Positions 23,703-53,848 of a DNA stretch of 53,848 nt are shown here, one piece after another. Location: IMG/VR virus record IMGVR_UViG_3300032829_000014, positions 1 to 53,848 of that record, one strand, 5' to 3'. The translations under genes and the position numbers were made by a program. This DNA is from a virus. Each line of letters opens with the position of its first letter. Positions within the stretch are counted from its first letter, which is position 1. The notes below the pieces were generated by a model. That model made no database searches. It saw only the letters and a list, made by a program, of their open reading frames with translations, and was not told the DNA's origin.

Positions 23703-23733
23703 TTGTTATTTTAAAATATTATTTTTAATTTTG
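23703..23733 (+). promoter_or_regulatory. Host-type promoter opening the accessory region
   Basis: TTG (23703-23705), 20 bases, then TAATTTTGC (-7 element 23726-23733). It lies 25 bases before the start at 23758 and is the only clear promoter I see at the head of the rightward glycosyltransferase region. Confidence 0.65.
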
Positions 23734-23757
23734 CTAAATTAAATTTTTAGTATAATA

Positions 23758-24054
23758 ATGAATGAAAAATTATTAAATGAATTTTTATTATATAAAAATA
23801 ATAATATTTTTTCTGAAAATTTTAAATTTCTTATAACAGAAATAATAGAAAAAGAATCTTTAAAAAAATTAAAATATTTAGATAATTTAAAAATAAAACA
23901 ATTTAAAGAAAATGCTTTTAATTTTTGTTATAAAAATATTAATAAATTTGATTTAAAAAAATCAAACAATATATTATCTTATATTATTATAATAATTAGA
24001 TGTTCTTTTAGTAAAGATATTAATAAATTAAAATATGAAAATGAAAAAATCTAA
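23758..24054 (+). CDS. Small helical protein before the first large GT gene
   Basis: A 98-residue Lys/Asn/Leu-rich helical protein starting MNEKLLNEFLLYKNNNIF, with a hydrophobic C-terminal helix (NNILSYIIIIIRCSF). It overlaps the start of the 544-residue glycosyltransferase by 20 bases, indicating coupled translation. The function is unknown. Confidence 0.65.
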   Translation: MNEKLLNEFLLYKNNNIFSENFKFLITEIIEKESLKKLKYLDNLKIKQFKENAFNFCYKNINKFDLKKSNNILSYIIIIIRCSFSKDINKLKYENEKI

Positions 24055-25669
24055 AATAGCAATAGTTTATTCAACACCAAAAGTAGGTTCTTTTATTGAA
24101 GAATATAATGAAAAATTATTAAAAAATACTTTTAATAAAAATAATATTAAAATTTTTCCAATTATTAATAAAAAAGAATATTCATTATCAGAAGCATATA
24201 ATATTTGTATTAATAAAATAAAAGAATATACAAATAATAATTTAGATGAATGGATTTTACTTTTTATACATGATGATATAACTATACTTAATAAGTATAA
24301 TTGGGATAAAATTTTATTAAATAATTTTAATAATACAAATTATGATATTACAGGTGTCGCCGGTACTAAAGAATTATATAAACATGGAATTTGGTGGCTT
24401 ACTCCTGATGGTAAACAAATGAATAATGGTAAATTATATGGTAAAGTTTGGCATACTGATGGTTTAAAACAATGGGAATCTGTTTTTGGTAATAGTAATA
24501 AAATTATTGATGATGTTGTAACAATTGATGGTGTTTTTATAGCTGTAAATCCTGATAATATAAAATATTGGTTTGATGAAAGATTTAATGATTATCATTT
24601 TTATGATATTCCTTTTGTAATTAATAATTATTTAGAAGGATGTAATATTGGAGTTATGAATAATATATTAATATTACATAATTCAATTGGAGAAGTTAAT
24701 CAAAAATGGGAAGAAAATAGAAAACAATTTTGTGAATTATATAAAGATGAATTACCAATAATATTAGGACAAGATAATAATAAATTAAATGTTTTAATTT
24801 GTTGTCAATTTTTTAGTAATTATACTGGTTCTGAAATGTCTAATTTTGAATTAGCTAGAGAATTAGTAAAACAAGGATGTAATGTGTCGTTAATATCAAC
24901 AGTTGTTGGCGAACCATTATTAAGTAAAGCAAAAAAAGCTGGAATAAATATGTATAATATACAAGATATTGTAAATCTTCAATATTATAAATTTGATATT
25001 ATTCATATTAATCATAAACCAATTGGTGAAATAGTATTACAATATTTTCCAAATACACCAGCTGTTATGCATATTCGTTCTGAAGTAATTCCAGTTTTTG
25101 AAGAACCAATATTACATAATAATATTAAAAAATATATATCAATTAGACCAAGTGTTAAAGAATATATTAAATCATTTGGAATAAATGAAGAAAATATAAT
25201 ACATATTGATAATCCATTTGATACAAATAGATTTAATATTAATTATAAACAACAAAAAAATAATAAAGAAATAATATTGTTTATTGGAACATTAGATTAT
25301 TTAAGAAAAAATATTTTATTTGATCTTAAAAAACAAGTTGAAAAAGAAAATAAAATACTTTGGATAATTGGAGATAATAGTGGTAATTATGCTAATGAAT
25401 TAATATCTGAAAATGTTAAATATTTTGGTATTAAATCAAATGTTGAAGATTATTTAAAAAAATGTGATTATACAGCAGGAATATTTACTGGAAGATCAAC
25501 AATTGAAGGATTTTTATGTGGAAAAAAAGGATATATTTATACTGTTGATAAACAAGGAAATATTTTAAATAAAGAATTAATGGATGTTCCAAAAGATATT
25601 GAAAAATATTCAGCAGAATATTCAGCAAAAAAAGTAATTGAATTATATAATAATATTTTAAATAATTAA
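24035..25669 (+). CDS. Two-domain glycosyltransferase (GT-A plus GT4-like GT-B)
   Basis: A 544-residue protein. Residues about 5-245 form a GT-A-like domain: KIAIVYSTPKVGSFIEEYN, then EWILLFIHDDITIL (the metal-site Asp pair) and DDVVTIDGVFIAV, which resembles the acceptor region of GT2-like enzymes. From residue 250 a GT-B domain begins: LNVLICCQFFSNYTGSEMSN, FELARELVKQGCNVSLIST, then ILFIGTLDYLRKNILFDL, the GT4 donor domain, and YTAGIFTGRSTIEGFLCGK with the E-x7-E-like segment. It could add two successive sugars. The first codons (MKMKKSK) leave the start uncertain by two codons. Confidence 0.8.
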   Translation: MKMKKSKIAIVYSTPKVGSFIEEYNEKLLKNTFNKNNIKIFPIINKKEYSLSEAYNICINKIKEYTNNNLDEWILLFIHDDITILNKYNWDKILLNNFNNTNYDITGVAGTKELYKHGIWWLTPDGKQMNNGKLYGKVWHTDGLKQWESVFGNSNKIIDDVVTIDGVFIAVNPDNIKYWFDERFNDYHFYDIPFVINNYLEGCNIGVMNNILILHNSIGEVNQKWEENRKQFCELYKDELPIILGQDNNKLNVLICCQFFSNYTGSEMSNFELARELVKQGCNVSLISTVVGEPLLSKAKKAGINMYNIQDIVNLQYYKFDIIHINHKPIGEIVLQYFPNTPAVMHIRSEVIPVFEEPILHNNIKKYISIRPSVKEYIKSFGINEENIIHIDNPFDTNRFNINYKQQKNNKEIILFIGTLDYLRKNILFDLKKQVEKENKILWIIGDNSGNYANELISENVKYFGIKSNVEDYLKKCDYTAGIFTGRSTIEGFLCGKKGYIYTVDKQGNILNKELMDVPKDIEKYSAEYSAKKVIELYNNILNN

Positions 25670-25675
25670 TAAATT

Positions 25676-25864
25676 ATGAATAGAAATAAATTAAATTATA
25701 TAATAATTTTATTATTAAGTATTTTAATTTTTTCTTGTAATACAAAAAAAGAAAAATTAAATTTTCCTAGAACAATTATAATTAATAATATTAATAATGA
25801 TAAAAGAATTGATACTGTTTTAATGGTATTAGTTAATAAAATATATAATTATGATACATTATAA
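25676..25864 (+). CDS. Predicted lipoprotein, N-terminal part of a split gene
   Basis: 62 residues: a signal peptide (MNRNKLNYIIILLLSILIF) and a lipobox ending SC at residues 20-21, then a short periplasmic stretch. The TAA at 25862 is in the same frame as the following gene, whose first ATG is only 15 bases on. I read the two as one lipoprotein/metallopeptidase gene interrupted by a nonsense codon. A free 41-residue mature lipoprotein (spanin-like in size) is the alternative. Confidence 0.55.
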   Translation: MNRNKLNYIIILLLSILIFSCNTKKEKLNFPRTIIINNINNDKRIDTVLMVLVNKIYNYDTL

Positions 25865-25879
25865 ATTATTACAGTTCCT

Positions 25880-26557
25880 ATGATTTCATCAATAAATAAT
25901 AATATTAAATATATTGCTTTTACAATAAAACATCCATTTAAAAAACATAATTATATGATATTATATGATATAAATTTAAAATATAATGATTTAAAGGAAA
26001 CATTATGTCATGAATTTGTTCATATTGATCAATTAGAAAGAGGCGATATTATTGATCCACAAAATGGTGAATATGTTATTTATAAAAAAGATACATTTTT
26101 TTTAAATAAAGTAAAATATTTTGATAGGCCTTTTGAAATAGATGCATTTAATAAATCAAAAAATTTATTAAAAATATTAATTATGAAAATTTTAAGATTA
26201 TTTATTGTAAGACAATTTGCATTAGGACATATAATTAAAATATTTAAATTAGAAATAAGTATTTTAAAAGCTGCTCGAATTATGTTTCCTTATTTTTTAT
26301 TAAGTGCAATTTTTATAAAAAATGTAACACCTGATGTTTTTAATTGGTATGATTGGATATTATTAGGATTATGGATTTTTCAATTATGGATTGGCTTTTC
26401 ATGGTTTGGTTTAGGATATTTTGAATTATGGCCAATAAAATGGAAAGAATTAGATGAAGAACAAAAGTTACAATATGGATTTTTGAATTATGATAAATTA
26501 TCATATTATGAAAAAAATGAATATAAACTTATATCTAAAAAATATTTAAATAAATAA
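25880..26557 (+). CDS. HExxH metallopeptidase-like domain fused to a membrane domain
   Basis: 225 residues. The first part has CHEFVHIDQLERGDI near residue 41, an HExxH zinc-peptidase helix, with FDRPFEIDAFNKSK further on, where E could be the third zinc ligand, as in small gluzincin-like proteins. From about residue 100 (MKILRLFIVRQFALGHIIK) a membrane domain follows with hydrophobic helices (RIMFPYFLLSAIFI; WILLGLWIFQLWIGFSW) and a charged tail (PIKWKELDEEQKLQYG). The second part could once have been a separate holin-like protein. The frame is continuous with the lipoprotein gene upstream apart from one TAA. Confidence 0.6.
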   Translation: MISSINNNIKYIAFTIKHPFKKHNYMILYDINLKYNDLKETLCHEFVHIDQLERGDIIDPQNGEYVIYKKDTFFLNKVKYFDRPFEIDAFNKSKNLLKILIMKILRLFIVRQFALGHIIKIFKLEISILKAARIMFPYFLLSAIFIKNVTPDVFNWYDWILLGLWIFQLWIGFSWFGLGYFELWPIKWKELDEEQKLQYGFLNYDKLSYYEKNEYKLISKKYLNK

Positions 26558-26884: not shown

Positions 26885-27637
26885 ATGATAATAAATCAAG
26901 GCTATAATCATATTGAAATTTGTAAGCAAGCATTAATAGATGAAAATTTGTTTAATACTTTTAAAAGTAATAATAAGTATAGAATAATTTTAGAACATGT
27001 TGGATATGAAACAGGTTTAGAATATTTAAATAAAATTAAATCAAATAAAGATTACTCAATAATTGAAAAATGTTGGACTAAATTTTTAGAAAATGATGTT
27101 ATTGGTACTCCAATAAAATTTAAATATAATTTAAGTGATAATTTAATAAATACTAATGTTTCTCCAACTACATTAAGATATATTTCTATTGGATTAGATA
27201 TTATAAAATATATTCAAGAAAAAAAATTAAATAATATTAATATTTGTGAAATAGGAGGAGGATATGGTGGCCAAAGTAAGATATTATTTGATTTATGTAA
27301 TATTTTTAATATTAATATAATTAAATATAAAATTATTGATATTCCTGAAGTTAGTAAATTTCAAGAAAAATATTTAACAAAATTAAATATAAAAAATGTA
27401 ACTTTTGAATCTTGTTTAAGTATAAATATCGAAGAACATGATTTATTAATTTCAAATTATGCATTAGGTGAATTTAATAATGAAACTCAAGAAGAATATA
27501 TTGAAAAAGTTGTTAAATATTGTAAATATTATTATATGATATGGAATAATCATGGTATAAATGAATATTTTAAAGATGCAATAATATTACCAGAAATACC
27601 TGAAACAGCAGAATTTAATAAAGTAATATGTAAATAA
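26885..27637 (+). CDS. Putative sugar O-methyltransferase
   Basis: A 250-residue class I SAM methyltransferase. INICEIGGGYGGQSKILFDL at about residues 119-138 is the SAM-binding glycine loop, and KYKIIDIPEVSKFQEKYL gives the acidic residue after strand 2. HDLLISNYALGEFN is the strand-4 motif. The layout fits the 'putative sugar O-methyltransferase' family found in polysaccharide loci. It sits with glycosyltransferases and would cap a glycan. Confidence 0.7.
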   Translation: MIINQGYNHIEICKQALIDENLFNTFKSNNKYRIILEHVGYETGLEYLNKIKSNKDYSIIEKCWTKFLENDVIGTPIKFKYNLSDNLINTNVSPTTLRYISIGLDIIKYIQEKKLNNINICEIGGGYGGQSKILFDLCNIFNINIIKYKIIDIPEVSKFQEKYLTKLNIKNVTFESCLSINIEEHDLLISNYALGEFNNETQEEYIEKVVKYCKYYYMIWNNHGINEYFKDAIILPEIPETAEFNKVICK

Positions 27638-27869: not shown

Positions 27870-28439
27870 ATGCAAAATTATATAAAATTATCGGAATATG
27901 CAAGAAAAAAATCAATAACTTATAAAACAGCATGGAATCATTTTAAAAAAGGAATGATTGATGGTGCTTTTTTAGATAATACTAATCATGTGTTAATACC
28001 TATTAACAATAATTTAAATAATAATTGTATTATATATGCCAGAGTATCATCAAATGATAGAAAACAATCATTAATTGATCAACAAAAAAGATTGGAAGAA
28101 TTTGCAAATTTAAAAGGTTATAATATTGTTGGTTCATATAAAGAAATTGCTTCTGGTATGAATGATAAAAGAATTATTTTAAATAAAATATTAAATAATG
28201 ATGATTGGAATATACTTATTATTGAAAATAAAGATAGATTAACCAGATTTGGGTTTAATTATATTAAAACTTTATTAAATAAACAAAATAAAGAAATCAT
28301 TATACTTAATACTATAGATAATGATAAACAAGATTTAATGAAAGATTTAATATCAATATTCTATTCCTTTTCTGCCAGAATGTATGGCCTAAGAAGAAAA
28401 AAAAATAAACAAGATATAATTAAATTTATTGAAAATTAA
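27870..28439 (+). CDS. tnpA: IS607 TnpA, serine recombinase
   Basis: A 189-residue transposase of the IS607 type. Residues 1-45 are a MerR-like DNA-binding helix-turn-helix (YIKLSEYARKKSITYKTAWN). Residues 53-189 are a small resolvase domain with the catalytic serine in IIYARVSSNDRKQS (S60), then LIDQQKRLEEFANLKGYN, SGMNDKR and IIENKDRLTRFG with the active-site arginines. It cuts and rejoins the element at GG. It is followed 9 bases later by tnpB. Confidence 0.92.
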   Translation: MQNYIKLSEYARKKSITYKTAWNHFKKGMIDGAFLDNTNHVLIPINNNLNNNCIIYARVSSNDRKQSLIDQQKRLEEFANLKGYNIVGSYKEIASGMNDKRIILNKILNNDDWNILIIENKDRLTRFGFNYIKTLLNKQNKEIIILNTIDNDKQDLMKDLISIFYSFSARMYGLRRKKNKQDIIKFIEN

Positions 28440-28448
28440 AAATAATTA

Positions 28449-29690
28449 TTGCAATTAGTTGAACAACATATTATAAAATCTAATAATCCTTTCTTTAAAG
28501 AATGTGATAATATTTGTTTTAAATCAAAAAATTTATATAATTCTTGTTTATATAATATCAGACAAGAATATATAAATAATAAAATAAATATTATTAATAA
28601 TTTATATCATATAATGAAAAATACTGATGAATATAAATCATTGCCAAGAAAAGTATCATCATCAGTATTATTAATGGTTCAAAAAAATTTTAAATCATTT
28701 TTTAATTCATTAAAAGAATATAATAAAAACTTAAATAAATTTAAAAATAGACCACATTTACCAAAATATTTGGATAAAATTGATGGAAGATATATGGTTT
28801 CATATACCAATCAAGCAATATCTAAAAAAATATTTAAAAAAGTTAATAAAATTAAATTATCACAATCTAATATTGAATTTAAAACAAAAATTAATGATTT
28901 TAATATTATAGATTGTATAAGAATAGTACCTAAAATAGGTTATTATGTTATTGAAATTGTTTATACTATTAAAGAAAAAGGATTATTAAATGATAATAAT
29001 CAATATTTAAGTATTGATATAGGATTAAATAATTTAGCTACATTAACAAGTAATAAAATTAATTTTGACCCAATAATTATAAATGGTAAGCCATTAAAAA
29101 ATATAAATCAATATTATAATAAAAAAAGATCAGATTTACAATCAATATTAAAAATTAGAAATAATAAAAATAATTCAAATAAATTAAATTTATTAACATT
29201 AAAAAGAAAAAATAAGATAGATAATTATTTACATAAAGCAAGTAAAAATATAATTAATATATGTAATGAAAATAATATAAATACGATAATAATAGGTAAA
29301 AATGATAATTGGAAACAAGATATAAATATAGGTAAAACAAATAATCAGAATTTTGTAAATATACCACATAGTAGATTTATAGAGATAATAAAGTATAAAT
29401 GCGAAATAAGTGGTATAAAATTTATAACTATAGAAGAAAGTTATACAAGTAAAGCAAGTTTTTTAGATTTAGATAAGATACCAAATTATAGTAAAAATAA
29501 TAAAACTAATTATAATTTTAATGGTAAAAGAATATCAAGAGGGTTATATAAAACTAATAAAGGTATAATTATAAATGCTGATGTAAATGGTAGTTATAAC
29601 ATATTAAGAAAAGCAATTCCAAAAGTATTTTCCAATGGGGTAGAGGGTGTTAGAGTACATCCAAAAATCATAAAAATTTTAAAGGGATAA
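28449..29690 (+). CDS. tnpB: IS607-associated TnpB nuclease
   Basis: A 413-residue TnpB with a TTG start, supported because the family begins MQLVEQHIIK. RuvC residues: D190 in YLSIDIGLNN and D378 in INADVNGSYNI. At the usual second site the sequence is IIIGKNDNWKQ without Glu. A Glu pair at 329-330 (ITIEESYTSKASFLD) lies further on, a rearranged arrangement I recall for IS607-linked TnpBs. No CxxC zinc ribbon is present. The end (FSNGVEGVRVHPK) is typical of this branch. It probably uses a guide RNA from its own 3' end. Confidence 0.88.
   Translation: MQLVEQHIIKSNNPFFKECDNICFKSKNLYNSCLYNIRQEYINNKINIINNLYHIMKNTDEYKSLPRKVSSSVLLMVQKNFKSFFNSLKEYNKNLNKFKNRPHLPKYLDKIDGRYMVSYTNQAISKKIFKKVNKIKLSQSNIEFKTKINDFNIIDCIRIVPKIGYYVIEIVYTIKEKGLLNDNNQYLSIDIGLNNLATLTSNKINFDPIIINGKPLKNINQYYNKKRSDLQSILKIRNNKNNSNKLNLLTLKRKNKIDNYLHKASKNIINICNENNINTIIIGKNDNWKQDINIGKTNNQNFVNIPHSRFIEIIKYKCEISGIKFITIEESYTSKASFLDLDKIPNYSKNNKTNYNFNGKRISRGLYKTNKGIIINADVNGSYNILRKAIPKVFSNGVEGVRVHPKIIKILKG
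29590..29686 (+). ncRNA. Probable guide (omega) RNA region at the 3' end of the IS607 element
   Basis: TnpB guide RNAs normally overlap the last part of tnpB and reach the right end of the element, with the guide read from flanking DNA. The extent here is inferred from that rule and from the right end fixed at 29686; I did not resolve a fold. The GC-richer stretch CAATGGGGTAGAGGGTG near 29633 would be its core. The guide would begin at 29687. Confidence 0.35.
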
Positions 29691-30166: not shown

Positions 30167-30757
30167 ATGAGTTCTCAATCACAAGTAGGCCAAGATTTAT
30201 GGGCTTTAGAAGTATTAAAAAATAAAAAAAATGGATTTTTTATTGATATTGGAGCACATAATGGAGTATTTTTTAGTAATACATATATGTTTGAAAAAGA
30301 ATACGAATGGAATGGGTTAGCTATTGAAGCTGATCCTGTTTTATTTGAATCATTAAAGAAAAATAGAAATTGTATATGTATTAATAAAGCAATTACAAAT
30401 TATAATGGTAAATGTAAATTTGATGGTAAAATTTGTAATTCAAATAGTAGTATTGAAGTTGATGGAATAACATTAAGTGAATTGTTTAAGCAATATAATG
30501 TTCCTAAAGTTATTGATTATATATCTTTAGATATTGAAGGTGGAGAATATAATGCATTATTAGGTTTTCCATTTAATGAATATAAATTTTTAACATTAAC
30601 TGTTGAACATAATATATATAATGGAGATAAACAAAATTTAATAAATAAAGAAAAAATATTTGATTTATTAACAAATAATAATTATTTTCGTATAAAAAAT
30701 AATGTTGCTGATAATGGTAATGAATTTGAAGATTGGTATATTTTAAAAAATATATAA
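30167..30757 (+). CDS. FkbM-family methyltransferase
   Basis: A 196-residue SAM methyltransferase of the FkbM type. SQVGQDLWALEVLKNKKNG and FFIDIGAHNGVFFSNTYMFE (SAM loop) open the domain. AIEADPVLFESLKKNRNCI, then DYISLDIEGGEYNALLGF, which carries the conserved D-EG-E, complete it. FkbM enzymes O-methylate sugars and related hydroxyl groups. A second, distinct FkbM enzyme is encoded at 40503. Confidence 0.88.
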   Translation: MSSQSQVGQDLWALEVLKNKKNGFFIDIGAHNGVFFSNTYMFEKEYEWNGLAIEADPVLFESLKKNRNCICINKAITNYNGKCKFDGKICNSNSSIEVDGITLSELFKQYNVPKVIDYISLDIEGGEYNALLGFPFNEYKFLTLTVEHNIYNGDKQNLINKEKIFDLLTNNNYFRIKNNVADNGNEFEDWYILKNI

Positions 30758-31675: not shown

Positions 31676-31816
31676 ATGAAAATTAAAAATATTTATACTG
31701 AAGTATCATATTGGGATGAATTTAATAAAAATAATTTTCCTTGGTTTAAAAAAGGTAAAATGAAAAGAATGTTAAGAAAAAGATTTATAAAAAATCAAAT
31801 TAAAAATAATGAATAA
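31676..31816 (+). CDS. Very small basic protein
   Basis: 46 codons starting MKIKNIYTEVSYWDEFNKN and then turning strongly basic (KKGKMKRMLRKRFIKNQ). It has normal local spacing (6 bases after the previous stop) and overlaps the next gene's start by 8 bases, in keeping with a real translated gene. The function is unknown. Confidence 0.5.
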   Translation: MKIKNIYTEVSYWDEFNKNNFPWFKKGKMKRMLRKRFIKNQIKNNE

Positions 31817-32549
31817 TAGAGATGTATCAGTAATATTAAATGTTTATAAGCGTCCAGAAACATTAGAATTACAAATTAATTCTATATTAAATCAAACATA
31901 TAAAATAAAGCCAGAAAATATACATGTTTGGTATAATAAATCAGATGTTATACAAAATCTACCAAAAAATGAACAAATAAAAACATATAATTGTAATTGG
32001 AATACTAAATTTTTTGGAAGATTTACAATTCCTTTATTATTAGATACAGAATTTATTGCAATGTTTGATGATGATATGTTACCGGGTAGTAGATGGATTG
32101 AAAATTGCATTGATTCAATTGAAAAAGTTAATGGTATAATGGGTGGTAGCGGTGTTATATTAGATAAAAAAGCTTATTTTCCAAATCATAAAGTTGGATG
32201 GAATGGTTTACATAGTAATAAGATTGAAAGAGTTGATCTTGTTGGCCATGCATGGTTCTATAGAAGAGAATGGATAAAATATTTTTGGATGAATAAACCA
32301 TATAATATGAATAATGGTGAAGATATTCATTTTTCATATATGTGTCAAAAATATGAAAATATAAATACATTTGTACCACCACATCCAAATACTGATATGT
32401 CATTTTGGTCTACAGATCCAAAATTTGGAACAGAAAAAGGTATGGATAATAATGCAAGTTCATTAATTATTAATAATCATATTAGTGTAAGAGATGAAAT
32501 TTGTAAATATTATATATATAATGGATGGAATACAGTAAATTTAATTTAA
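31809..32549 (+). CDS. Glycosyltransferase, GT2-like
   Basis: A 246-residue protein. VSVILNVYKRPETLELQIN at the start is a GT-A nucleotide-binding strand and loop. FIAMFDDDMLPGSRWIENC at about residues 79-97 is the D-D-D metal site. GHAWFYRREWIKYFW and NNGEDIHFSYMCQKY in the second half are typical acceptor-side motifs of such enzymes (the 'GED' catalytic region). It is part of the main sugar cluster. Confidence 0.82.
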   Translation: MNNRDVSVILNVYKRPETLELQINSILNQTYKIKPENIHVWYNKSDVIQNLPKNEQIKTYNCNWNTKFFGRFTIPLLLDTEFIAMFDDDMLPGSRWIENCIDSIEKVNGIMGGSGVILDKKAYFPNHKVGWNGLHSNKIERVDLVGHAWFYRREWIKYFWMNKPYNMNNGEDIHFSYMCQKYENINTFVPPHPNTDMSFWSTDPKFGTEKGMDNNASSLIINNHISVRDEICKYYIYNGWNTVNLI

Positions 32550-38421: not shown

Positions 38422-38436
38422 TTAAAATTTAAATAT

Positions 38437-43490: not shown

Positions 43491-44177
43491 ATGATAAATA
43501 TTGATAAAATATATGTTTGTCATCATAAACCTTTAATAGAAAGAAAAGAAATATTATATAAATATTTTAAAGAAAAAAATATAGATGTTGAATGGGTTGA
43601 AAAATATTTACCCGAAGAAATATCTGATAAATATGATGAATTAGTTGGATATTTTAATATTGATCCAGAAGCAAAATTTATATGTTATGGACAATATAGT
43701 TATTTTCCAAATGTAGGAAAAAAAATAAATTTAGGTGAATTATCTTTATATTTAAAACATTTATATTGTTTTGAAGATCAAATAAAAAATAATTATGAAA
43801 ATATTTTAATATTGGAAGATGATTTGTTAATACCAACAGAATATGATTTTATTAAATATTTAAATAATTGCATTGATGAATTTAAAAAAATAAAAGCTGA
43901 TATGATGTTTTTGGGTTCTTGTTGTGAAATTCATGTTGATTGGGCAAATAGAAAAAATAATAAATATGTTTATTTAATAAAAAATCAATTAACAAGATGT
44001 ACACATGCATATGTTACAAGTATTGAAGCAACAAAAAAAATATTAACAAAAGTATATCCTAAAAATATGCCTATAGATTTTAAATTAAATGAAATTATAA
44101 TCGTTGAAAATTTAAAAGTTGCTTGGACTGAACCAAGTTTTAGCCAAAATCCAAAATTTAAATCGGAATTAAGATAA
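43491..44177 (+). CDS. GT25-like glycosyltransferase
   Basis: 228 residues. KIYVCHHKPLIERKEILYKY starts the domain, and GELSLYLKHLYCFEDQI followed by YENILILEDDLLIP is the GT25 (LPS beta-galactosyl/collagen-type) signature with the E-D-D metal site. TRCTHAYVTSIEATKKIL and MPIDFKLNE match the acceptor half. Confidence 0.85.
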   Translation: MINIDKIYVCHHKPLIERKEILYKYFKEKNIDVEWVEKYLPEEISDKYDELVGYFNIDPEAKFICYGQYSYFPNVGKKINLGELSLYLKHLYCFEDQIKNNYENILILEDDLLIPTEYDFIKYLNNCIDEFKKIKADMMFLGSCCEIHVDWANRKNNKYVYLIKNQLTRCTHAYVTSIEATKKILTKVYPKNMPIDFKLNEIIIVENLKVAWTEPSFSQNPKFKSELR

Positions 44178-44178: not shown

Positions 44179-44997
44179 ATGAATTATTATTCAATATTTA
44201 ATGAAAAAAATGATTTAGAAATTTATTGTTTTAATAATAAAAAAGTTTTTATAACATCATTTTTTAATTCAAAAACAATATCTAAAGATATTGCTGAATA
44301 TCAAAAGAAAGTATTTAATAAATTTAATATTTTATTAAATCAATTTGATGATGATATAAGGCATCCTGAATTTATGGATTATATTATGAATAATATTAAT
44401 GCAGATATTTTTATATTTTTTGATATTGATTGTATTCTATTAAGAAAAAATATTATTAATGAAATATTATTAGAAGTTAATGATAATAGTATTTTTGGCC
44501 TTGCACAATGTGATAATTCAAATGATTTAAATCATATATATGCTGCTCCTTCATGTTTTGGAATTACAAAAAATTTATATAATAATTTAAGTAATCCATC
44601 GTTTGTTGAAAGACAAAGATATATATCAAATTATAATAATAAAATTGAAAATACTAAGAATTTAATATCAGCATACGGAATAAAAGATATTGGATATGGT
44701 AGTGAGTTTTATAATCAATCAATGAAAATAGCTCAAAGATTAAATCTTAAACTTATTTGTGATACTGCTGAAGAAATAACATATTTATGTGAAGAAAAAG
44801 GATATAATATTAATTTGTGGTATCCAACAAATTATGATAAAAATAGTAATACTTGGAGATTAGGAAATAGTAATATATTGTTTGGAAATGGTACAATATA
44901 TAATAATTGTATTTATCATAATTTTCAAATAAGAAAAAATGAAGAATCTCAAAGATTTATTAATAAATGTAAAGAAATATTAAATAATTTAAATTAA
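44179..44997 (+). CDS. Putative glycosyltransferase, DxD type
   Basis: 272 residues. ADIFIFFDIDCILLRKNII gives a D-x-D motif on a GT-A strand near residue 80; GIKDIGYGSEFYNQSMKI and the final HNFQIRKNEESQRFINKC are consistent with a donor/acceptor site. I cannot assign a CAZy family with certainty. It begins 1 base after the GT25-like stop, so the two are coupled. Confidence 0.65.
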   Translation: MNYYSIFNEKNDLEIYCFNNKKVFITSFFNSKTISKDIAEYQKKVFNKFNILLNQFDDDIRHPEFMDYIMNNINADIFIFFDIDCILLRKNIINEILLEVNDNSIFGLAQCDNSNDLNHIYAAPSCFGITKNLYNNLSNPSFVERQRYISNYNNKIENTKNLISAYGIKDIGYGSEFYNQSMKIAQRLNLKLICDTAEEITYLCEEKGYNINLWYPTNYDKNSNTWRLGNSNILFGNGTIYNNCIYHNFQIRKNEESQRFINKCKEILNNLN

Positions 44998-45327: not shown

Positions 45328-46068
45328 GTGATTTCAGTAGAATTTATAGGTAGACTTGGTAATCAAATGTTTCAATATACAATATTGAGAATTGTTGCTA
45401 AATTAAAAAACTATAATTATTGTATTAAAGATAATTGGTTAGGATATAATATTTTTGATTCTAATATGAATTATAATAAAAATTTTAATACAAATAAAGT
45501 ATATAATGGTCATGGTAGATATTCTGAAGATGTTTTAAAAATTGATGATAATACATTAATATGTGGATATTTTCAAAATATTGAATATTTTGAAAATTAT
45601 TATAATGATATTTTAGAATGGTTTAAAATAAAAGATAATATTAATATTGATAATTTTTTAAATAAATATAACATTAATGATTATTGTTACATACATTTTA
45701 GAGGTACTGATTATAAAGAAATTCCAGGATTTTTTTTACATAAAGAATATTATGAAAAAGCTAAAAATAAAATATTAAATGATTATAAAAATTTAAAATT
45801 TTTAATTATAACAGATGATATACCCACAGCTAAAGAATATTTTTCAGATGATGAAATTTTATCAAATTCGATGGAAATAGATTTTAAATTATTAAATAAA
45901 GCTAAATATTCAATAATATCAAATTCAACATTTTCTTGGTGGTCAAGATATTTAAATAATGATAAAAATAGTATAACAATAGCACCAAAAGGATTTTTTA
46001 ATTATAATACAATAAAAAAACCTTCTTTTGAAAATTTAGAAACAAATAAATTTATTTGGATAGATTAA
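45328..46068 (+). CDS. GT11 fucosyltransferase-like protein (second copy)
   Basis: 246 residues with a GTG start. ISVEFIGRLGNQMFQYTILR is the family signature. CYIHFRGTDYKEIPG replaces H-x-R-R-G-D with HFRGTDY, as in many bacterial GT11 enzymes. KAKYSIISNSTFSWWSRYLN, with AP following, is the third block. It differs strongly from the 37374 copy and so is likely to have a different acceptor or origin. Confidence 0.88.
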   Translation: MISVEFIGRLGNQMFQYTILRIVAKLKNYNYCIKDNWLGYNIFDSNMNYNKNFNTNKVYNGHGRYSEDVLKIDDNTLICGYFQNIEYFENYYNDILEWFKIKDNINIDNFLNKYNINDYCYIHFRGTDYKEIPGFFLHKEYYEKAKNKILNDYKNLKFLIITDDIPTAKEYFSDDEILSNSMEIDFKLLNKAKYSIISNSTFSWWSRYLNNDKNSITIAPKGFFNYNTIKKPSFENLETNKFIWID

Positions 46069-46069: not shown

Positions 46070-46753
46070 ATGGAAAAAAATAGAAATATACATTTAATTA
46101 TTACAACAGCAAATATTTCTAAAAATATTTGTAATAAAATATATGGATCAGGATATTCATATGAAAAAAGAATAAATGATTATAAAAAATCATTTGAAAT
46201 TGTATCATCATTAAGAAAATATTTTACAACAATTACAATTTTAGAAACATGTTCAAAAGAAAAAATTGATTATTTACATGATTATAATTTTATTGTTTAT
46301 TATTCAAATCAAAATAATTATTTTGTTAATAAAGGATTGAATGAAATGAATCATATAAATAATTATTTATGCGATAATTCATTTATTAAAGATGATGATA
46401 TTGTTATTAAATTATCTGGTAGATATTTTATAACTAATACTAATATTTTAAATTTTACAAATAAATATAATATTATTGTTAAAGATGATAGAGATATTTA
46501 TACATCTGGTTTAGGCGTTCATACTTTTTATTTTGCTATAACAAAAAAACTATTTTTTGATTTTTATAAATTTATTGATTTAAAATTTGATGATATTGAT
46601 TATAAAAAAAATATAGCTATTGAATGGGAAATGAAAAAATTTTTCGAATCATTAAATGATGAAAAATATATGATATTACCACAAGAAAAAATAGGTATAA
46701 TAACAAATACTTATTATGGAGATATTAATTGTTGTAAAATTGAGTATGTGTGA
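46070..46753 (+). CDS. Possible glycosyltransferase, unassigned
   Basis: 227 residues. HLIITTANISKNICNKIYGS at the start, then TITILETCSKEKIDYLHDYN and DDDIVIKLSGRYFITN, suggest a GT-A-like order (strand, small Asp cluster, K.sGRY). This kind of sequence occurs in uncharacterised capsule enzymes. It begins 1 base after the GT11 stop and ends overlapping the next start. Confidence 0.5.
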   Translation: MEKNRNIHLIITTANISKNICNKIYGSGYSYEKRINDYKKSFEIVSSLRKYFTTITILETCSKEKIDYLHDYNFIVYYSNQNNYFVNKGLNEMNHINNYLCDNSFIKDDDIVIKLSGRYFITNTNILNFTNKYNIIVKDDRDIYTSGLGVHTFYFAITKKLFFDFYKFIDLKFDDIDYKKNIAIEWEMKKFFESLNDEKYMILPQEKIGIITNTYYGDINCCKIEYV

Positions 46754-47018
46754 AAATAAAGAATTAAGAATAAATATAATAAATATGAATAAAAAAGATT
46801 TAGTTAATAAAGGATTTATTTCATTGATTGAATGGGAAAATAAATATGAAGATAGATTAATGATATTTAGTCCATCAAAATGTTATAGAAAAAATAATAT
46901 TATTGCAAGAATGTTAGATGAAAATAATATTAAATTTTATAAAATATTTAAAGTAAATATGAATTCATTAGGTTACAGAATACCTGAATTAATAGAAATA
47001 AAGAATTATGAAGAATAG
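46746..47018 (+). CDS. Hypothetical protein
   Basis: 90 residues from the ATG at 46746 (MCENKELRINIINMNKKD), overlapping the previous gene by 8 bases; MNKKD at 46785 is another start. A compact alpha/beta core, FISLIEWENKYEDRLMIFSP, then NNIIARMLDENNIKFYKI, is protein-like, but I do not know the family. Confidence 0.55.
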   Translation: MCENKELRINIINMNKKDLVNKGFISLIEWENKYEDRLMIFSPSKCYRKNNIIARMLDENNIKFYKIFKVNMNSLGYRIPELIEIKNYEE

Positions 47019-47754
47019 AAAAGAATATTTAGATTTAAATTTAACATTTTATAATATATTAATAGATTGTAATAAAAATTTTTCGCATGTTAAGATTGGT
47101 GATGGAGAAATATTTGCTATGAGATATTGGCAAGGAGAAAATGCTGATAAACATTCATATTCAAAAAAATTGGGTGATGAATTAAAAGAATCGTTAATTT
47201 TTTTATCAAAAGGATCCAATGTTTTTATAGCAGATTGGTTTTATTCTAATCCTTGTAAATATCCACATGATTTTGATAATAAAAATTTTTTAGATAATTT
47301 TTTAAAAGAAAATAATTTAGAACCTAGTTTTATTCAGCCATTTGAATTACTTATGTTTGGTTGGGAAAATCAAAAATATAATTATTTATTTAAATTTTAT
47401 CAAAAAATTAAACAAAGTAATCGAAAAAAAGTTTATATTTGTAATGAGAAATTTAATAGTTTAAAAAATATATTAAATATTAATGAATTTCTTAATATAC
47501 CTTTAATAAATGCATATTCTGAAATAGATAATATATATAATGAAACAATTAAAATTATTGAAGATAATAGTATTATTTTAATGAGTGTTGGTATGATGTC
47601 TCCAATTTTAACAAATAGATTATTAAATTATAATGAAAATATTACTATTTTAGATATTGGTAGTGGCCTCGATCCTTTAGTATTAAATTCTAAAAATAGA
47701 GGAGATGTACAAGGAAGCCATAATGAAGCATTAGAATATTTTAAAAATATATAA
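47008..47754 (+). CDS. GT-D-like glycosyltransferase (second copy)
   Basis: 248 residues. FSHVKIGDGEIFAMRYWQGE near residue 25 carries the D-G-E motif, NVFIADWFYSNP follows, and SIILMSVGMMSPILTNRLL with ITILDIGSGLDPL ends the domain. This is the same overall order as the 34582 gene but with low sequence identity. Confidence 0.68.
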   Translation: MKNRKEYLDLNLTFYNILIDCNKNFSHVKIGDGEIFAMRYWQGENADKHSYSKKLGDELKESLIFLSKGSNVFIADWFYSNPCKYPHDFDNKNFLDNFLKENNLEPSFIQPFELLMFGWENQKYNYLFKFYQKIKQSNRKKVYICNEKFNSLKNILNINEFLNIPLINAYSEIDNIYNETIKIIEDNSIILMSVGMMSPILTNRLLNYNENITILDIGSGLDPLVLNSKNRGDVQGSHNEALEYFKNI

Positions 47755-48086: not shown

Positions 48087-48335
48087 ATGGCAGTACAAAG
48101 AAATATACCAACTTGTCCTTTTTGTGGAAAAAAAATTGCAAAAGCAATATATAGAAAACATTTACCTTGGGAATCTCCTTTTTATGAAGATGATTTTATA
48201 GAATGGAAATATATAAAGCATAATTGTAAAGAAAGAAAAAAATTTATAAAAGATAATAAAAAGGATAATGAATTTAAAGATTTATTATTAAATATTTTTA
48301 AAAATGAAAAAACAAATAAATCCAGTAATATATAA
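48087..48335 (+). CDS. Small zinc-binding protein
   Basis: 82 residues. PTCPFCGKKIAKAIYRKHLP near the start and YIKHNCKERKK further on give Cys2 and His/Cys ligands of a single zinc finger. The end overlaps the GIY-YIG gene by 32 bases. Confidence 0.6.
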   Translation: MAVQRNIPTCPFCGKKIAKAIYRKHLPWESPFYEDDFIEWKYIKHNCKERKKFIKDNKKDNEFKDLLLNIFKNEKTNKSSNI

Positions 48336-49203
48336 AATAATAAATCTAATAAATAATAAAATATATATTGGAAAAGATTTATATAATAATCCTAAATATA
48401 TGGGTTCTGGAAAATTATTAAAACAAGCTTTTAAAAAATATGGTAAAATAAATTTTAAAAAAGAAATTATTGAAAAATGTAATGATATAAATCAATTAAA
48501 TGAAAGAGAAAAATTTTGGATTAAAAATTTAAATACTTTTTCTCCTAATGGATATAATATTAATGTTGGTGGAAAAGGTGGTGATACATATACATATCGT
48601 TCTCAAGAAGAAAAACTTAAATTTAGAGAAAATTTAAAAATTAAAAAATTAGGTAAAAAATGTTCAATTGAAACAATTGAAATTTTTAAAAAAGCTAGAA
48701 AAGGAAAACCACAAAAAAGAAGAGAAAATGTAGAATGTCCTTATTGTCATAAAATAGGTGATAAATTAAATATGATGAGATGGCATTTTGATTTTTGTAA
48801 AGAAAATCCAAATAGAATAATAAAAAATATAAAAAAAATAAAATGTTGTTTTTGTAAAAAAGAAATAAATATAGCAAATGCATATCAATGGCATTTTGAT
48901 TTTTGTAAGGAAAATCCAAATAGAATAATAAAAAGAGGTCATCCTCAATCAATAGAAAGTAAAATTAAAATAGGAAATAAAAGTAGAGGTAGAAAACATA
49001 CAATCGAAACAAAAATTAAAATAGGTAATAAAAGTAAAGGTAGAAAAAAAACTGAAGAGACTAAAAATAAACTTAGTATTAGTATGAAAAAAAGATGGAA
49101 AAATAATATAAACATATATAAATGTATTTATTGTAATAAAAAATCAAAATCTTTAGGAAATATAAATAGATGGCATAATGAAAATTGTAAATTTAAAAAA
49201 TAA
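48304..49203 (+). CDS. GIY-YIG homing endonuclease with NUMOD3 and zinc fingers
   Basis: 299 residues. The nuclease domain spans residues 1-90: NPVIYKIINLINNKIYIGKD (GIY and YIG strands), then REKFWIKNLNTFSPNGYNIN. Linker motifs of the NUMOD3 type (SIESKIKIGNKSRGRKHT, and again TIETKIKIGNKSKGRKKT) bind DNA. Three C2HC-like fingers are present (VECPYCHKI...WHFDFC; IKCCFCKKE...WHFDFC; YKCIYCNKK...WHNENC). Two fingers share a 46-base near-identical DNA repeat (48781 and 48889), a recent internal duplication. Confidence 0.88.
   Translation: MKKQINPVIYKIINLINNKIYIGKDLYNNPKYMGSGKLLKQAFKKYGKINFKKEIIEKCNDINQLNEREKFWIKNLNTFSPNGYNINVGGKGGDTYTYRSQEEKLKFRENLKIKKLGKKCSIETIEIFKKARKGKPQKRRENVECPYCHKIGDKLNMMRWHFDFCKENPNRIIKNIKKIKCCFCKKEINIANAYQWHFDFCKENPNRIIKRGHPQSIESKIKIGNKSRGRKHTIETKIKIGNKSKGRKKTEETKNKLSISMKKRWKNNINIYKCIYCNKKSKSLGNINRWHNENCKFKK
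48781..48934 (+). repeat. 46-base direct repeat inside the GIY-YIG gene
   Basis: The unit starting TGGCATTTTGATTTTTGTAA occurs at 48781-48826 and 48889-48934, differing by a single base (AAAG against AAGG). It encodes WHFDFCKENPNRIIK twice, that is, the end of zinc fingers 1 and 2. Confidence 0.8.
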
Positions 49204-49220
49204 TAATAAAAAATAAGATT

Positions 49221-50114
49221 ATGAGTAAAAGAGTAATAATTTATGGAGTAAAAACAAATGATGATAAATTTCATTATATTGGTAAAACTGAAAAAAAAGT
49301 AAATAAAAGAAATGAACTTAATAAATCTGATGTTACTAGACAATATTTAAATAATGATATTAGAACTATTTTTAATGAAAATGTAAATGTTATACCTATT
49401 GAATATGTTAAAGAAAATGAATGGTATGATAAAAAATTAATTAATATTGTAAAAAAATATAATGAAAAACATCCATTAAAAAATGCTAAATGGATGTTAG
49501 AAGGAAAACGTGGATTTTGGGAAGGTACTGGTGGTTATTGGAAAGGAAAGAAAAAAGATGATTTTACATTGCAAAGATTATCAGAAAGTAAATTTAAAAA
49601 AATAGCTCAATATGATAATGAAGGTAATTTAATAAAAATTTGGAAATCTGGAAAAGATGTTGGAATTGAAATATTTAAAGATTATAAAATTATAAATGGT
49701 TCTGGATGTACTAATTTATATATAATTTTAGAAAATAAAACATTAAGGGGAAGATTTAAATATAATTTTTATTGGTTTAAAGAAGATGAACTAATATATT
49801 ATTTTAATAATATTCCAATTAAATTAAATTTAAACAATATTAAAGAAAAAGAAAAAATAGTTAGAAAAGAAGCATCAAAAAAAGCTTTAAATAATAGATT
49901 AATATTTGGACAAAAAAAATATACAATAGAGCAATTTAATAAAAATGGAAAATTAATAAAAACATATATAAATGTTGAAGATGCATCAAAAAAATTAAAA
50001 AAAAGTATTCATACAATTCGTGATATTTGTAATAATAAAAGAAAAAAATATGATGAAAATTGTATATTAAAATATGGTGAAAAAATTTTACAACCAATAA
50101 AAAAGAAAGATTAG
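49221..50114 (+). CDS. Diverged GIY-YIG-type protein with NUMOD1-like repeats
   Basis: 297 residues. VIIYGVKTNDDKFHYIGKTE at the start is a GIY-YIG pair. A middle GFWEGTGGYWKGKKKDDFT region is linker-like. KIAQYDNEGNLIKIWKSGKD and, near the end, TIEQFNKNGKLIKTYINVED, followed by ASKKLKKSIHTIRDIC, are NUMOD1-type DNA-binding repeats. Likely a homing endonuclease. It follows the 48304 endonuclease by 17 bases. Confidence 0.75.
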   Translation: MSKRVIIYGVKTNDDKFHYIGKTEKKVNKRNELNKSDVTRQYLNNDIRTIFNENVNVIPIEYVKENEWYDKKLINIVKKYNEKHPLKNAKWMLEGKRGFWEGTGGYWKGKKKDDFTLQRLSESKFKKIAQYDNEGNLIKIWKSGKDVGIEIFKDYKIINGSGCTNLYIILENKTLRGRFKYNFYWFKEDELIYYFNNIPIKLNLNNIKEKEKIVRKEASKKALNNRLIFGQKKYTIEQFNKNGKLIKTYINVEDASKKLKKSIHTIRDICNNKRKKYDENCILKYGEKILQPIKKKD

Positions 50115-50125
50115 AGATATATTTA

Positions 50126-50917
50126 ATGAAAGAATTTTATTATCAAATAAAGGGAAAAAGAGATGAGAATGATCACAATGGATTATCCAGATGGATGTTT
50201 CCTCCTATTTTTTCTGGTAAAGTTGAAGCTGAAAATAGAGATGAAGCAAAAAAATTTATTGAAGAAAAATATAATAAAAAATTTCCTTTAAAAGTTTTAA
50301 AAAAAGACTTGGATAGTAATGAATTTTTATTAAGTATTGAAGAAATTAAAGAAGACAGTCATATAAGAAGATTATTTGAAAAACAAATATGTAAGCATTG
50401 TAATAATGCTTTTTATGTTATTGACAAATACAATGATAAAAATTGCTTAAATAAAGGATTTGAATTTTGTTCTGATGAATGTAAAATTGAATATAATGAA
50501 ATAAAAAAATATATGTTTAATGATAGACAAAATTTATTATATGAAATAAATAATATAGAAAAAATAGATGAAAATATTGAAATTGATAATATCATTGAAA
50601 AACATTTAGATAATAAAAAAACTATTCCGATAATTTATAAAATTACAAATAAAGCAACAAATTTATCATATATTGGTAAAACAATACAAATTTTTACATT
50701 AAGATGGTATCAACATTTTTATCAAAAAGGTAATTGTAAATTTCATAATGCAATTAAAAATAGTAATTTAATTGATTGGAATTTTGAAATTATTGAAATT
50801 GTTAAAATACCTAAAAATGCCAAAACAATAAATGAAATTGATACAATAATATTAGAAAGAGAAAGATATTGGATAAATTATTATAATACAATAAATGAAG
50901 GATATAATACATTATAA
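50126..50917 (+). CDS. Phage protein fused to a C-terminal GIY-YIG domain
   Basis: 263 residues. Residues 1-90 look like a small phage protein (FYYQIKGKRDENDHNGLSRW, then AENRDEAKKFIEEKY). Residues 91-130 have QICKHCNNAFYV and FEFCSDECKIEY, a treble-clef-like Cys4. From residue 170 a GIY-YIG domain runs: IIYKITNKATNLSYIGKTIQ, LRWYQHFYQ, and LERERYWINYYNTINEGYN with the catalytic Glu region. GIY-YIG is usually N-terminal in homing enzymes, so the order is reversed here. Confidence 0.75.
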   Translation: MKEFYYQIKGKRDENDHNGLSRWMFPPIFSGKVEAENRDEAKKFIEEKYNKKFPLKVLKKDLDSNEFLLSIEEIKEDSHIRRLFEKQICKHCNNAFYVIDKYNDKNCLNKGFEFCSDECKIEYNEIKKYMFNDRQNLLYEINNIEKIDENIEIDNIIEKHLDNKKTIPIIYKITNKATNLSYIGKTIQIFTLRWYQHFYQKGNCKFHNAIKNSNLIDWNFEIIEIVKIPKNAKTINEIDTIILERERYWINYYNTINEGYNTL

Positions 50918-51340: not shown

Positions 51341-51345
51341 TAATT

Positions 51346-51594: not shown

Positions 51595-51605
51595 AAATAT
51601 AAAAC

Positions 51606-52160
51606 ATGAAATTAATAAAAGAAGAAATTTTAAAACAAGATGTATCATTTTTTAATGATGAATTGAAAACATTTCCATATTTAAATGGTAATGGAGAACA
51701 TTATAAATTATTAAAATATATATCATTTTTATATGATAATAAAATAATGTTAGATTTAGGTACTGCTTGCGGACATTCAGCATTAGCATTAGCTCAAAAT
51801 AAAAGTAATAGAATTATTACTTATGATCTTAATAAAAGATCTAATCTTTTAGATAATGTAGAAAATATTAAAAGAGTATTATTAGATTGTAATTTAATGT
51901 CAAATGATGTTATTGAATTCTCTAAAATAATATTACTTGATATTGATCCGCATAATGGAATTCAAGAAATTAAATTTTATAATAAATTAAAACAAACAAA
52001 ATTTAAAGGAATATTATTATGTGATGATATTAATCTTAATCAAAATATGAAAAATTTTTGGAATCAAATAACAGAAGAAAAATATGATATATCTGATTTA
52101 GGGCATTTATCAGGAACAGGATTAGTAAATTTTAGTGATGAAAAAATTGAAATAGAATAA
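51606..52160 (+). CDS. Putative SAM-dependent methyltransferase
   Basis: 184 residues. KIMLDLGTACGHSALALAQN is the SAM loop and RIITYDLNKRSNLLDNVENI the next acidic strand. IILLDIDPHNGIQEIKFYNK and ILLCDDINLNQNMKNFWNQ look like the metal/catalytic part of a macrocin- or CmcI-type O-methyltransferase. Probably another glycan-modifying enzyme of the cluster. Confidence 0.68.
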   Translation: MKLIKEEILKQDVSFFNDELKTFPYLNGNGEHYKLLKYISFLYDNKIMLDLGTACGHSALALAQNKSNRIITYDLNKRSNLLDNVENIKRVLLDCNLMSNDVIEFSKIILLDIDPHNGIQEIKFYNKLKQTKFKGILLCDDINLNQNMKNFWNQITEEKYDISDLGHLSGTGLVNFSDEKIEIE

Positions 52161-52176
52161 ATTAAAAATAAAAAAT

Positions 52177-52431: not shown

Positions 52432-52442
52432 AATATAAAATA

Positions 52443-52672
52443 ATGATTCAACAAATTAAACAAAAGTATAGATTAAATTCTTTTAAAATTATAAAACATT
52501 ATAGTTGTGATGGTAATGAAACATTTATAAGAACAGGTAATCTTATTTGTAAAGATTGCGGAAAAAATATTCAGAACATTCGTATTGTTCTAATTCTAAA
52601 TTTAAAGATAATTTAGATAGAGATAATTACTATTTACATGTATTGTGTGATGGTACACATATTAAACTATAA
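52443..52672 (+). pseudogene. Small zinc-finger gene with a frameshift at an A-run
   Basis: The frame from ATG 52443 reads to LICKDCGKN, then loses the pattern and stops at 52616. In the -1 frame from the same point the protein goes on as KYSEHSYCSNSKFKDNL and ends with LHVLCDGTHIKL at 52672. The combined product would have a CxxC...HxxxC-type finger. The shift falls at GGA AAA AAT, which contains the slippery A_AAA_AAT. It may be a mutation or error in the A-run, or a programmed -1 shift. Confidence 0.55.
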
Positions 52673-52687
52673 AATAAAATTATAATT

Positions 52688-53737
52688 ATGTCATTATTAA
52701 TAAGTTATGGCTGTAGACCGGAATGGCTTAAAATTAAACCATTAATTAATGTTCTTAATAAAAATAATTTTAAATATAAGACATTATTTACTGGCCAGCA
52801 TCAAGATTTAATAAGAATTGAAAAAAATATTATTTGGGATTATAATTTTAATCCAGAAAATGGCGAAAATAGACTGGATAGTATTATTCAAGCCTGTATG
52901 AATAAATTAGGTAATATTGTTAATATTGAAAAAAATGAATATAACAATCAAATAAAATATATTATGGTACAAGGAGATACAACATCTGCATTAGGTGTTG
53001 CATTATCAGCTTTTCATCATAATATTAAAGTGATTCATTTGGAGGCGGGACTAAGATCTTTTAATAATGAGAATCCATATCCAGAAGAAGTAAATAGACG
53101 AATAATATCTCAAATTGCTTCAATACATTTATGTCCAACAAAAGAAAACTATGAAAATTTAATAAATGAAAAAATATTAGGTGATAAATATGTTGTTGGT
53201 AATACAGCATTAGATAATTTATTAGAATATAAAGATAAAATAAATTATAAAGATATTGTATTAGTGACATTACATCGTAGAGAAAATCATGATATTATTA
53301 ATAAATGGTTTATTGAAATAAATAAATTAGCAGAAAAATATGATAATATTCTTTTTATATTACCTTTACACCCAAATCCTAATGTTCAAAAATATAAAGA
53401 TTTATTAATGAATGTTGAAATTGTTAAACCATTAGATCATAAAGAATTATTAAATATTTTAGTAAAATGTAAATTAGTTATTACAGATAGTGGAGGATTA
53501 CAAGAAGAATGTTCATTTTTACAAAAAAAATGTTTGGTTTGTCGTAAAGTAACAGAAAGACCGGAAGCATTAGAAACATCATCAAGATTAATAATATCAC
53601 CCGAAAATCTTGAAAAATGGTTTGATTATATTATTGATGGACATTATGAAATATTACATAATAATTGTCCATTTGGAGATGGCTATGCATCTGAAAAAAT
53701 TTATAAAATATTGGAAAAATATTATAATGAAAGATAA
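52688..53737 (+). CDS. wecB: UDP-N-acetylglucosamine 2-epimerase (non-hydrolysing)
   Basis: 349 residues of the WecB/MnaA type, which converts UDP-GlcNAc to UDP-ManNAc in the cytoplasm. ISYGCRPEWLKIKPLINVL at the start (family: 'GTRPE.IK..P'), FTGQHQDL, VQGDTTSALG, VIHLEAGLRSFN with YPEEVNRR following, then VTLHRRENHD, VITDSGGLQEE and TERPEAL are all present and in order. The length is close to the normal 370. It provides an activated sugar for the transferases encoded to its left. Confidence 0.92.
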   Translation: MSLLISYGCRPEWLKIKPLINVLNKNNFKYKTLFTGQHQDLIRIEKNIIWDYNFNPENGENRLDSIIQACMNKLGNIVNIEKNEYNNQIKYIMVQGDTTSALGVALSAFHHNIKVIHLEAGLRSFNNENPYPEEVNRRIISQIASIHLCPTKENYENLINEKILGDKYVVGNTALDNLLEYKDKINYKDIVLVTLHRRENHDIINKWFIEINKLAEKYDNILFILPLHPNPNVQKYKDLLMNVEIVKPLDHKELLNILVKCKLVITDSGGLQEECSFLQKKCLVCRKVTERPEALETSSRLIISPENLEKWFDYIIDGHYEILHNNCPFGDGYASEKIYKILEKYYNER

Positions 53738-53848
53738 AATATATTTAAAAGAATTATATTTAACATATCCTATTATGGATTTGTTTCATACTTTAACAAA
53801 AAACTTAGTTGTTAAAATTGATGAAAAAGAATATCCAAATTTTATTTT
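53727..53848 (+). CDS. Hypothetical protein, cut by the right edge
   Basis: At least 40 codons starting MKDKIYLKELYLTYPIMDLF, continuing past the window. It overlaps the epimerase end by 11 bases. There is too little sequence to assign a function. Confidence 0.5.
   Translation, partial: MKDKIYLKELYLTYPIMDLFHTLTKNLVVKIDEKEYPNFI

Follow-up and report, generated by a model that had tools for sequence, protein, structure and literature searches.

Clusters of glycosyltransferase (GT) genes, also termed lipopolysaccharide (LPS) gene clusters, have been described in T4-like cyanophages and jumbo phages, with that of P-SSM2 located at 193–205 kb, and the cyanophage and pelagimyophage reports already document GT clusters without visible export genes (PMC7824862, PMC7029224). 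The moraphages, large freshwater phages with predicted Bacteroidota hosts, are described in a 2025 report as carrying four core GT orthogroups and variable islands (PMC12619734). Sugar genes have also been linked to phage particles: the Corndog gp35–38 region places GT and O-methyltransferase genes inside a virion operon, for which virion glycosylation was proposed (PMC4351075), and capsid and tail-tube subunits of mycobacteriophages carry glycans (Freeman 2023, as cited in PMC12619734). Here, we analyzed a sugar-gene region at positions 23,703–53,848 of a viral DNA fragment of 53,848 bases (IMG/VR record IMGVR_UViG_3300032829_000014), the whole of which is hereafter called the window. A preliminary description of this region, made from its letters alone, regarded the gene set as not a known phage pathway, a view that the published cyanophage and pelagimyophage clusters contradict. 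What is new, as far as we found, is an island that keeps a fixed site and has an almost empty allele, together with a co-inherited three-gene module encoding a GT2, a GT-D, and the UDP-N-acetylglucosamine (UDP-GlcNAc) 2-epimerase WecB.

Comparison with related records identified the region as an island of sugar genes whose content is hypervariable but whose position, within the tail/baseplate block, is fixed in a lineage of huge T4-like phages. The window carries markers of a contractile-tailed, T4-like phage, namely the tail sheath (1108–3840; phrog_23, 6.7e-55), the tail tube (4117–4605; phrog_4542), and PhoH (14289–15137; phrog_170). It has no end repeats, and its GC content is approximately 18–21% across most of its length. 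Since relatives identified through the sheath gene include records of 266–366 kb, the window is probably a small piece of a huge-phage genome. This phage was seen only within the fragment, and tests for absent genes rest on relatives, some of which are fragments themselves. Profile searches covered 26 related records, several of them 246–372 kb long, of which 15 had been picked via the epimerase. An alignment search with the epimerase yielded 252 relatives, and the phage identity figures given below refer to the best 80 phage relatives.

In this lineage, the site is flanked by the tail/baseplate block on one side and a conserved phage gene on the other. The gene order in relatives was a LysM-like gene, the GT2_5 gene, sugar genes, a conserved gene of approximately 212 aa, and then other phage genes, one of them for a UvsX-like recombinase. 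The left boundary marker, a small tail-block protein encoded in the window at 22739–23053 (plus strand), had orthologues in 9 of 12 relative records; it is LysM/gp53-like by reading only and matched nothing in Pfam or PHROG. The right-boundary gene (L226:12555–13193 and its relatives) belongs to a conserved, phage-specific family with 29 aligned members and an AlphaFold2 model of pLDDT 95.5, for which the only informative fold match was one uncharacterised myovirus protein. Between these flanks, record G014 holds a GT2_5–GT4 fusion alone and thus represents an almost empty allele, G011, G012, G013, G017, and G020 hold approximately 10 kb of sugar genes, and the window holds approximately 28 kb. 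Most accessory island genes had no homologue in eight relatives, the extra GTs and methyltransferases varied from phage to phage, and the islands of relatives also encoded a PfkB kinase, a cytidylyltransferase-like enzyme, and a DegT aminotransferase.

Because the LysM-like gene was separated from the GT2_5 start by 17–66 nt in 12 of 17 relatives' loci, and the last island gene overlapped the right-boundary gene by 1–50 nt in 22 of 31, the island and its flanking phage genes, which lie tightly packed on the same strand in relatives, look like one operon. In the window itself, two small open reading frames (ORFs) sit between the LysM-like and GT2_5 genes, and the right flank lies beyond the fragment. 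The 41-aa fragment of the ORF following the epimerase scored no better than shuffled sequences against the conserved right-boundary gene, so the island may continue for at least one gene past the window end.

Three genes of the island, encoding the GT2 (31809–32549), the GT-D (34582–35295), and the epimerase (52688–53737), all on the plus strand, form a conserved module that the tested sheath-chosen relatives either carried whole or lacked entirely. In a whole-genome comparison of relatives, these were the only window genes limited to module-bearing phages. The GT2 and GT-D profiles matched exactly the same 19 of the 26 records, and the epimerase and GT2 matched the same 4 of 18 records. As so many records had been picked via the epimerase, the sheath-chosen records provide the fairer test of co-inheritance; among these, the epimerase and GT2 were both present or both missing in every record tested for both. 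After we merged near-identical records, approximately ten distinct large lineages were compared, five with the epimerase and GT2 and five with neither (Fisher p ~0.008). The order GT2, GT-D, epimerase was kept in 22/22 loci with the window's site, and both partners lay within 10 kb of the epimerase in 57 of the 80 loci, several loci being cut short. A separate set of 33 epimerase loci, which shared no member with these 22, adjoined PhoH and the tail-block GT genes instead, and the module therefore has two alternative positions beside the same late block. A second GT2 family, common to module-bearing relatives, was absent from the window.

The third gene of the module encodes a non-hydrolysing UDP-GlcNAc 2-epimerase (TIGR00236 equivalog, 248.6 bits against a cut-off of 210; Pfam 5e-72). 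The best 80 phage epimerases were 48–59% identical to that of the window, the best cellular match found was 39% identical, and a large set of invariant residues was kept across five phages. The GT2 fell 0.1 bit below the Pfam cut-off (PF00535, 7e-5) and was clear in its own family profile; the 37-member phage alignment of this family showed an invariant DDD motif (D87 D88 D89). The best PDB match of the GT2 profile was TarP, a prophage-encoded wall-teichoic-acid GT, and this match was weak (E=1e-4). The GT-D exceeded the Pfam cut-off (PF08759), and its AlphaFold2 model (pLDDT 94.9) matched only three GT-D (DUF1792) structures in the PDB at E<0.001, which confirms the GT-D fold. In another GT-D enzyme, dGT1, the DUF1792 domain extends a protein-linked disaccharide of the adhesin Fap1 with glucose (PMC5207161); GT-D enzymes can therefore act on protein glycans, which does not by itself show the acceptor of the phage enzyme. 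The GT2 and GT-D had no homologue among 50,697 isolate-phage records at E 1e-5, so culture-based work has missed this module, which offers a concrete target for the question of what phage GT clusters glycosylate.

The absence of export and initiation genes, noted in the preliminary description for the island region, extended to longer relatives. The Wzx flippase profile (PF01943) matched 0/26 related records and 13/14 control genomes, and the initiating phosphoglycosyltransferase profile (PF02397) matched 0/26 records and 9/14 controls, the WecA type (PF00953) not being searched separately. A simple hydropathy scan found ORFs of at least 150 aa with six or more membrane spans in 0/80 phage epimerase loci versus 32/80 bacterial wecB loci, and no ORF at 23.7–53.8 kb had more than two predicted spans. 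Overall, no membrane, flippase, polymerase, or initiating genes were found, with Wzy (PF04932) not searched by profile. The annotated P-SSM2 cluster likewise lacks a membrane-spanning protein, and such absence alone therefore does not identify the acceptor. The preliminary description had taken it to suggest that the glycans are built on a virion protein, a nucleic acid, or a small acceptor; this step does not hold, as host enzymes can initiate and export.

The same description placed the island behind a single host-type promoter. The nearest sigma-70-type match, at 23731–23759, agreed with the consensus at 9 of 12 bases. Matches of this kind were rarer in this AT-rich sequence than in shuffled versions (113 found, 143 expected), and the promoter claim is not supported.

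Our leading choice for the acceptor is a core virion protein, that is, a tail, sheath, or capsid subunit, a putative assignment to which we give a little less than an even chance. A virion protein was judged likeliest because, at two different sites, the genes either belong to the structural block or adjoin it, because no membrane protein accompanies them, and because virion glycosylation is known in other phages. No virion gene in the whole-genome comparison of relatives shared the module's presence pattern; a dedicated, co-inherited acceptor protein is therefore unlikely, and the result fits a common acceptor. The best explanation for the locus as a whole, plausible though just short of evenly balanced, is a fixed-site hypervariable island whose conserved module directs the cytoplasmic synthesis of a glycan on a core virion protein. 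In this scheme, WecB would convert host UDP-GlcNAc to UDP-N-acetylmannosamine (UDP-ManNAc), the GT2 and GT-D would build a conserved inner glycan piece, and the variable GTs and methyltransferases would add and cap outer sugars stepwise. All of these steps would take place in the cytoplasm, probably late in infection alongside the synthesis of virion proteins, and the sugars would land on the core virion protein and give the particle a fast-changing sugar coat. It is possible, though we rather doubt it, that the module-bearing lineage builds a ManNAc-containing glycan directly on virion proteins and swaps the outer sugars, such that sugar serotypes differ among the particles of relatives. If the acceptor is a virion protein, the island would supply interchangeable sugar coats, with consequences for host range, the stability of the particle, or its recognition by the immune system.

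Several points weigh against a virion acceptor. Comparable clusters are usually read as host surface modification in the literature (PMC7029224, PMC7824862, PMC9123017). The acceptor, the glycopeptide, and the timing of expression are predictions from sequence; late expression in particular is putative, with gene position as its basis, and T4-type late promoter TATAAATA sites were not enriched (43 found, 55 expected). The PfkB, cytidylyltransferase-like, and DegT enzymes in the islands of relatives are typical of LPS-type sugar pathways. The shared presence pattern of the module could also fit a host molecule as acceptor.

The strongest rival, which we regard as a serious possibility if a somewhat improbable one, is that the island remodels a host outer glycan (LPS core, O-chain, or capsule). 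Here, soluble phage GTs and methyltransferases would modify lipid-linked or core acceptors of the host while these are still in the cytoplasm, host flippases would export the products, and the altered surface would keep competing phages from adsorbing or progeny from adsorbing again; the islands would then be exchangeable serotype-conversion cassettes. Bacterial loci for surface polysaccharides commonly contain GT11, GT25, GT32, FkbM, and WecB, and both the three additional enzymes of the relatives and the TarP match of the GT2 profile, weak as it is, point toward the host envelope. The lack of a membrane protein in the P-SSM2 cluster as well is consistent with this, and remodelling of the host envelope is the published reading of P-SSM2-type and pelagimyophage clusters (PMC7824862, PMC7029224). 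However, the embedding of the genes in the structural block suggests late expression, and a late surface change guards little against superinfection; moreover, none of the 80 loci encoded a protein with six or more spans.

Alternatively, most of the variable genes might be transient passengers at an insertion-prone site, and selection for function might act on the module alone. An IS607-type element and three homing-endonuclease-like ORFs do lie within the island, and the scarcity of accessory-gene homologues in the eight relatives is in keeping with such turnover, but the ORFs are intact, encode catalytic families above cut-off, share one theme (sugar transfer and O-methylation), and occupy the same site in several relatives, and we consider this explanation improbable.

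Glycosylation of phage DNA (hypermodified bases) against restriction, one of the acceptors suggested in the preliminary description, appears highly improbable, since the thymidylate-synthase homologues of G009/G011, G012, G013, and G014 keep an asparagine (PFN/SFN/PYN; the G018 copy is ambiguous there) and Tet/JBP matches above cut-off were found in 0/22 records, though no control genome matched that family either. Asparagine at this residue denotes thymidylate synthase rather than dCMP hydroxymethylase. These tests were run on relatives, as the window stops short of the replication genes. In favor of the idea, Pyle et al. (2024, as cited in PMC12619734) reported virus-encoded GTs that hypermodify DNA with diverse glycans. 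The thymidylate synthases at G012:100071–101216, G011:201238–202317, and G014:111187–112341 are 359–384 aa long, and their catalytic domain is interrupted midway by a long insertion.

The island region is predicted to encode approximately a dozen sugar-transferring enzymes, all of which look soluble; the genes below are on the plus strand. Besides the GT-D and WecB of the module, matches above curated Pfam/NCBIfam cut-offs comprised a GT2_5–GT4 fusion of 544 aa (24035–25669; PF13712 3.5e-17, PF13439 3.8e-7), which is the core GT of the lineage with orthologues in 8 relative records, the empty-island record included; a NanM-type sugar O-methyltransferase (26885–27637; TIGR04371); two FkbM methyltransferases (30167–30757, PF05050 9e-16; 40503–41135, Pfam 5.8e-15, 44% identical to a methyltransferase of the P-SSM2 cluster); a class I methyltransferase of the Methyltransf_24 family (36241–36897; Pfam 1.3e-7), whose copy in G017 was 50% identical; two GT11 enzymes of the fucosyltransferase family (37374–38249, PF01531 1.5e-13, with a homologue in the P-SSM2 cluster; 45328–46068, PF01531 3.2e-14); a GT32-type enzyme (41158–41982; Gly_transf_sug with DXD, PF04488 5.8e-11); and a GT25 (43491–44177; PF01755 1.3e-13). 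The preliminary enzyme list was thus borne out for these families and the GT2. Its calls were weaker for a GT47-like enzyme (42116–42976; Exostosin_GT47 2.5e-7, below cut-off; RXYLT1_C 2e-6, just above), for a second, divergent GT-D or SP_1767-like protein (47008–47754; Pfam GT-D just below cut-off; TIGR03728 8.9e-7, below cut-off; phage GT-D profile 2.1e-12), and for a fifth, probable methyltransferase (51606–52160; Pfam Methyltransf_31 0.042; NCBIfam 0.01, below cut-off). The listed DxD enzyme (44179–44997), a putative GT by its FIFFDID motif, had no match in Pfam, NCBIfam, or PDB sequences. A protein encoded between GT genes (46070–46753) is possibly a divergent GT by its position and had no significant match in Pfam or NCBIfam.

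Searches of PDB sequences were uninformative for the DxD protein, the second GT-D, and the GT fusion, and single-sequence scans with the epimerase, one GT11, and a 1013-aa protein found no relatives. In the GT11 family search over relatives, control genomes gave no match. The GT11 enzymes suggest fucosyl transfer, although GT family membership says little about donor or acceptor sugars. No NAD-dependent epimerase family (PF01370) enzyme was found in the window; any GDP-fucose would therefore have to be supplied by the host or by another part of the phage genome.

Outside the island, the tail block encodes on the minus strand a conserved GT2 (9455–10270; Pfam 6.9e-7) and a GT-like protein (10348–11460) that appears GT-B-like by reading only and matched nothing in Pfam or PHROG, each present in 12/12 relative records. 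The segment 9455–12671 (minus strand), with these two and a possible HAD-like protein, was kept in 12/12 relatives and was more conserved than the island itself. A second TnpB gene (IS605 type with a helix-turn-helix) lies in the same block at 12694–14022 (minus strand), without a recognised transposase partner.

The IS607-type element of the island (27870–29690, plus strand) consists of a serine resolvase (27870–28439; Pfam Resolvase 7.8e-17) and a TnpB (28449–29690; OrfB_IS605 8.6e-22, Cas12f1-like_TNB); relatives of both genes occurred in G018 and of TnpB in G011 and G001. The three homing-endonuclease-like ORFs (GIY-YIG, NUMOD1, GIY-YIG by Pfam), which we regard as cargo, are consecutive at 48304–50917 (plus strand) between the GT genes and the epimerase. 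Neither this element, nor these ORFs, nor the GT pair of the tail block appears in the preliminary description. The segment 39235–40491 encodes a CapR/DUF4379 zinc-finger repeat protein with DUF723, possibly a mobile or nuclease gene; its relatives in other phages lie at scattered positions. The ORF at 23071–23673 is apparently a moving gene, as its relative in G020, of 65% identity, occupies a distant site (38434–38943). Among the compared phages, only this one encoded the protein at 25880–26557, which has two predicted membrane spans and contains HEFVH, a motif resembling that of metallopeptidases.

Comparison with known systems separates the locus from a Wzx/Wzy-type polysaccharide locus, as the 26 related records lack Wzx and PF02397, and from DNA glycosylation systems, as no hydroxymethylated-base pathway was found in the relatives. 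O-glycosylation of the serine-rich-repeat adhesin Fap1 (Gtf1/2, Gtf3, dGT1, GalT2, Gly; PMC5207161) similarly involves a stepwise cytosolic series of GTs including a GT-D, whereas a serine-rich-repeat acceptor and accessory Sec genes were not recognised on reading the window, for which no dedicated search was run. Moraphages resemble the window phage in being large and having T4-type tail genes, the sheath, tube, and PhoH being widely shared, but the available part of that description does not analyze island content or the GT2/GT-D/WecB module (PMC12619734). As in mycobacteriophages with glycosylated virions, sugar genes in the window lineage lie inside the operon of virion structural genes or border it; Corndog has four such genes versus more than 10 in the window, and glycans have been seen on mycobacteriophage virions, whereas the window is known from genes alone. 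The pelagimyophage host-recognition cluster (PMC7029224) is likewise GT-rich and hypervariable and occupies a fixed site among the structural genes of T4-like phages, but it holds tail fibres and has GT8 as its commonest family, whereas no tail fibre was recognised in the window's island. The P-SSM2 cluster belongs to a T4-like myovirus and shares with the window the presence of GTs of several families, an FkbM-type methyltransferase, a GT11, nucleotide-sugar enzymes, a colinear arrangement, and the lack of a membrane protein; it contains none of the module's GT2, GT-D, or WecB families nor the GT2_5 family, and by annotation it has nucleotide-sugar epimerases, whereas the window has WecB but no PF01370 enzyme. 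With its contractile tail, several GT families, a nucleotide-sugar enzyme, and a variable region at a fixed site beside structural genes, the window shows these features of the GT/LPS clusters of T4-like phages.

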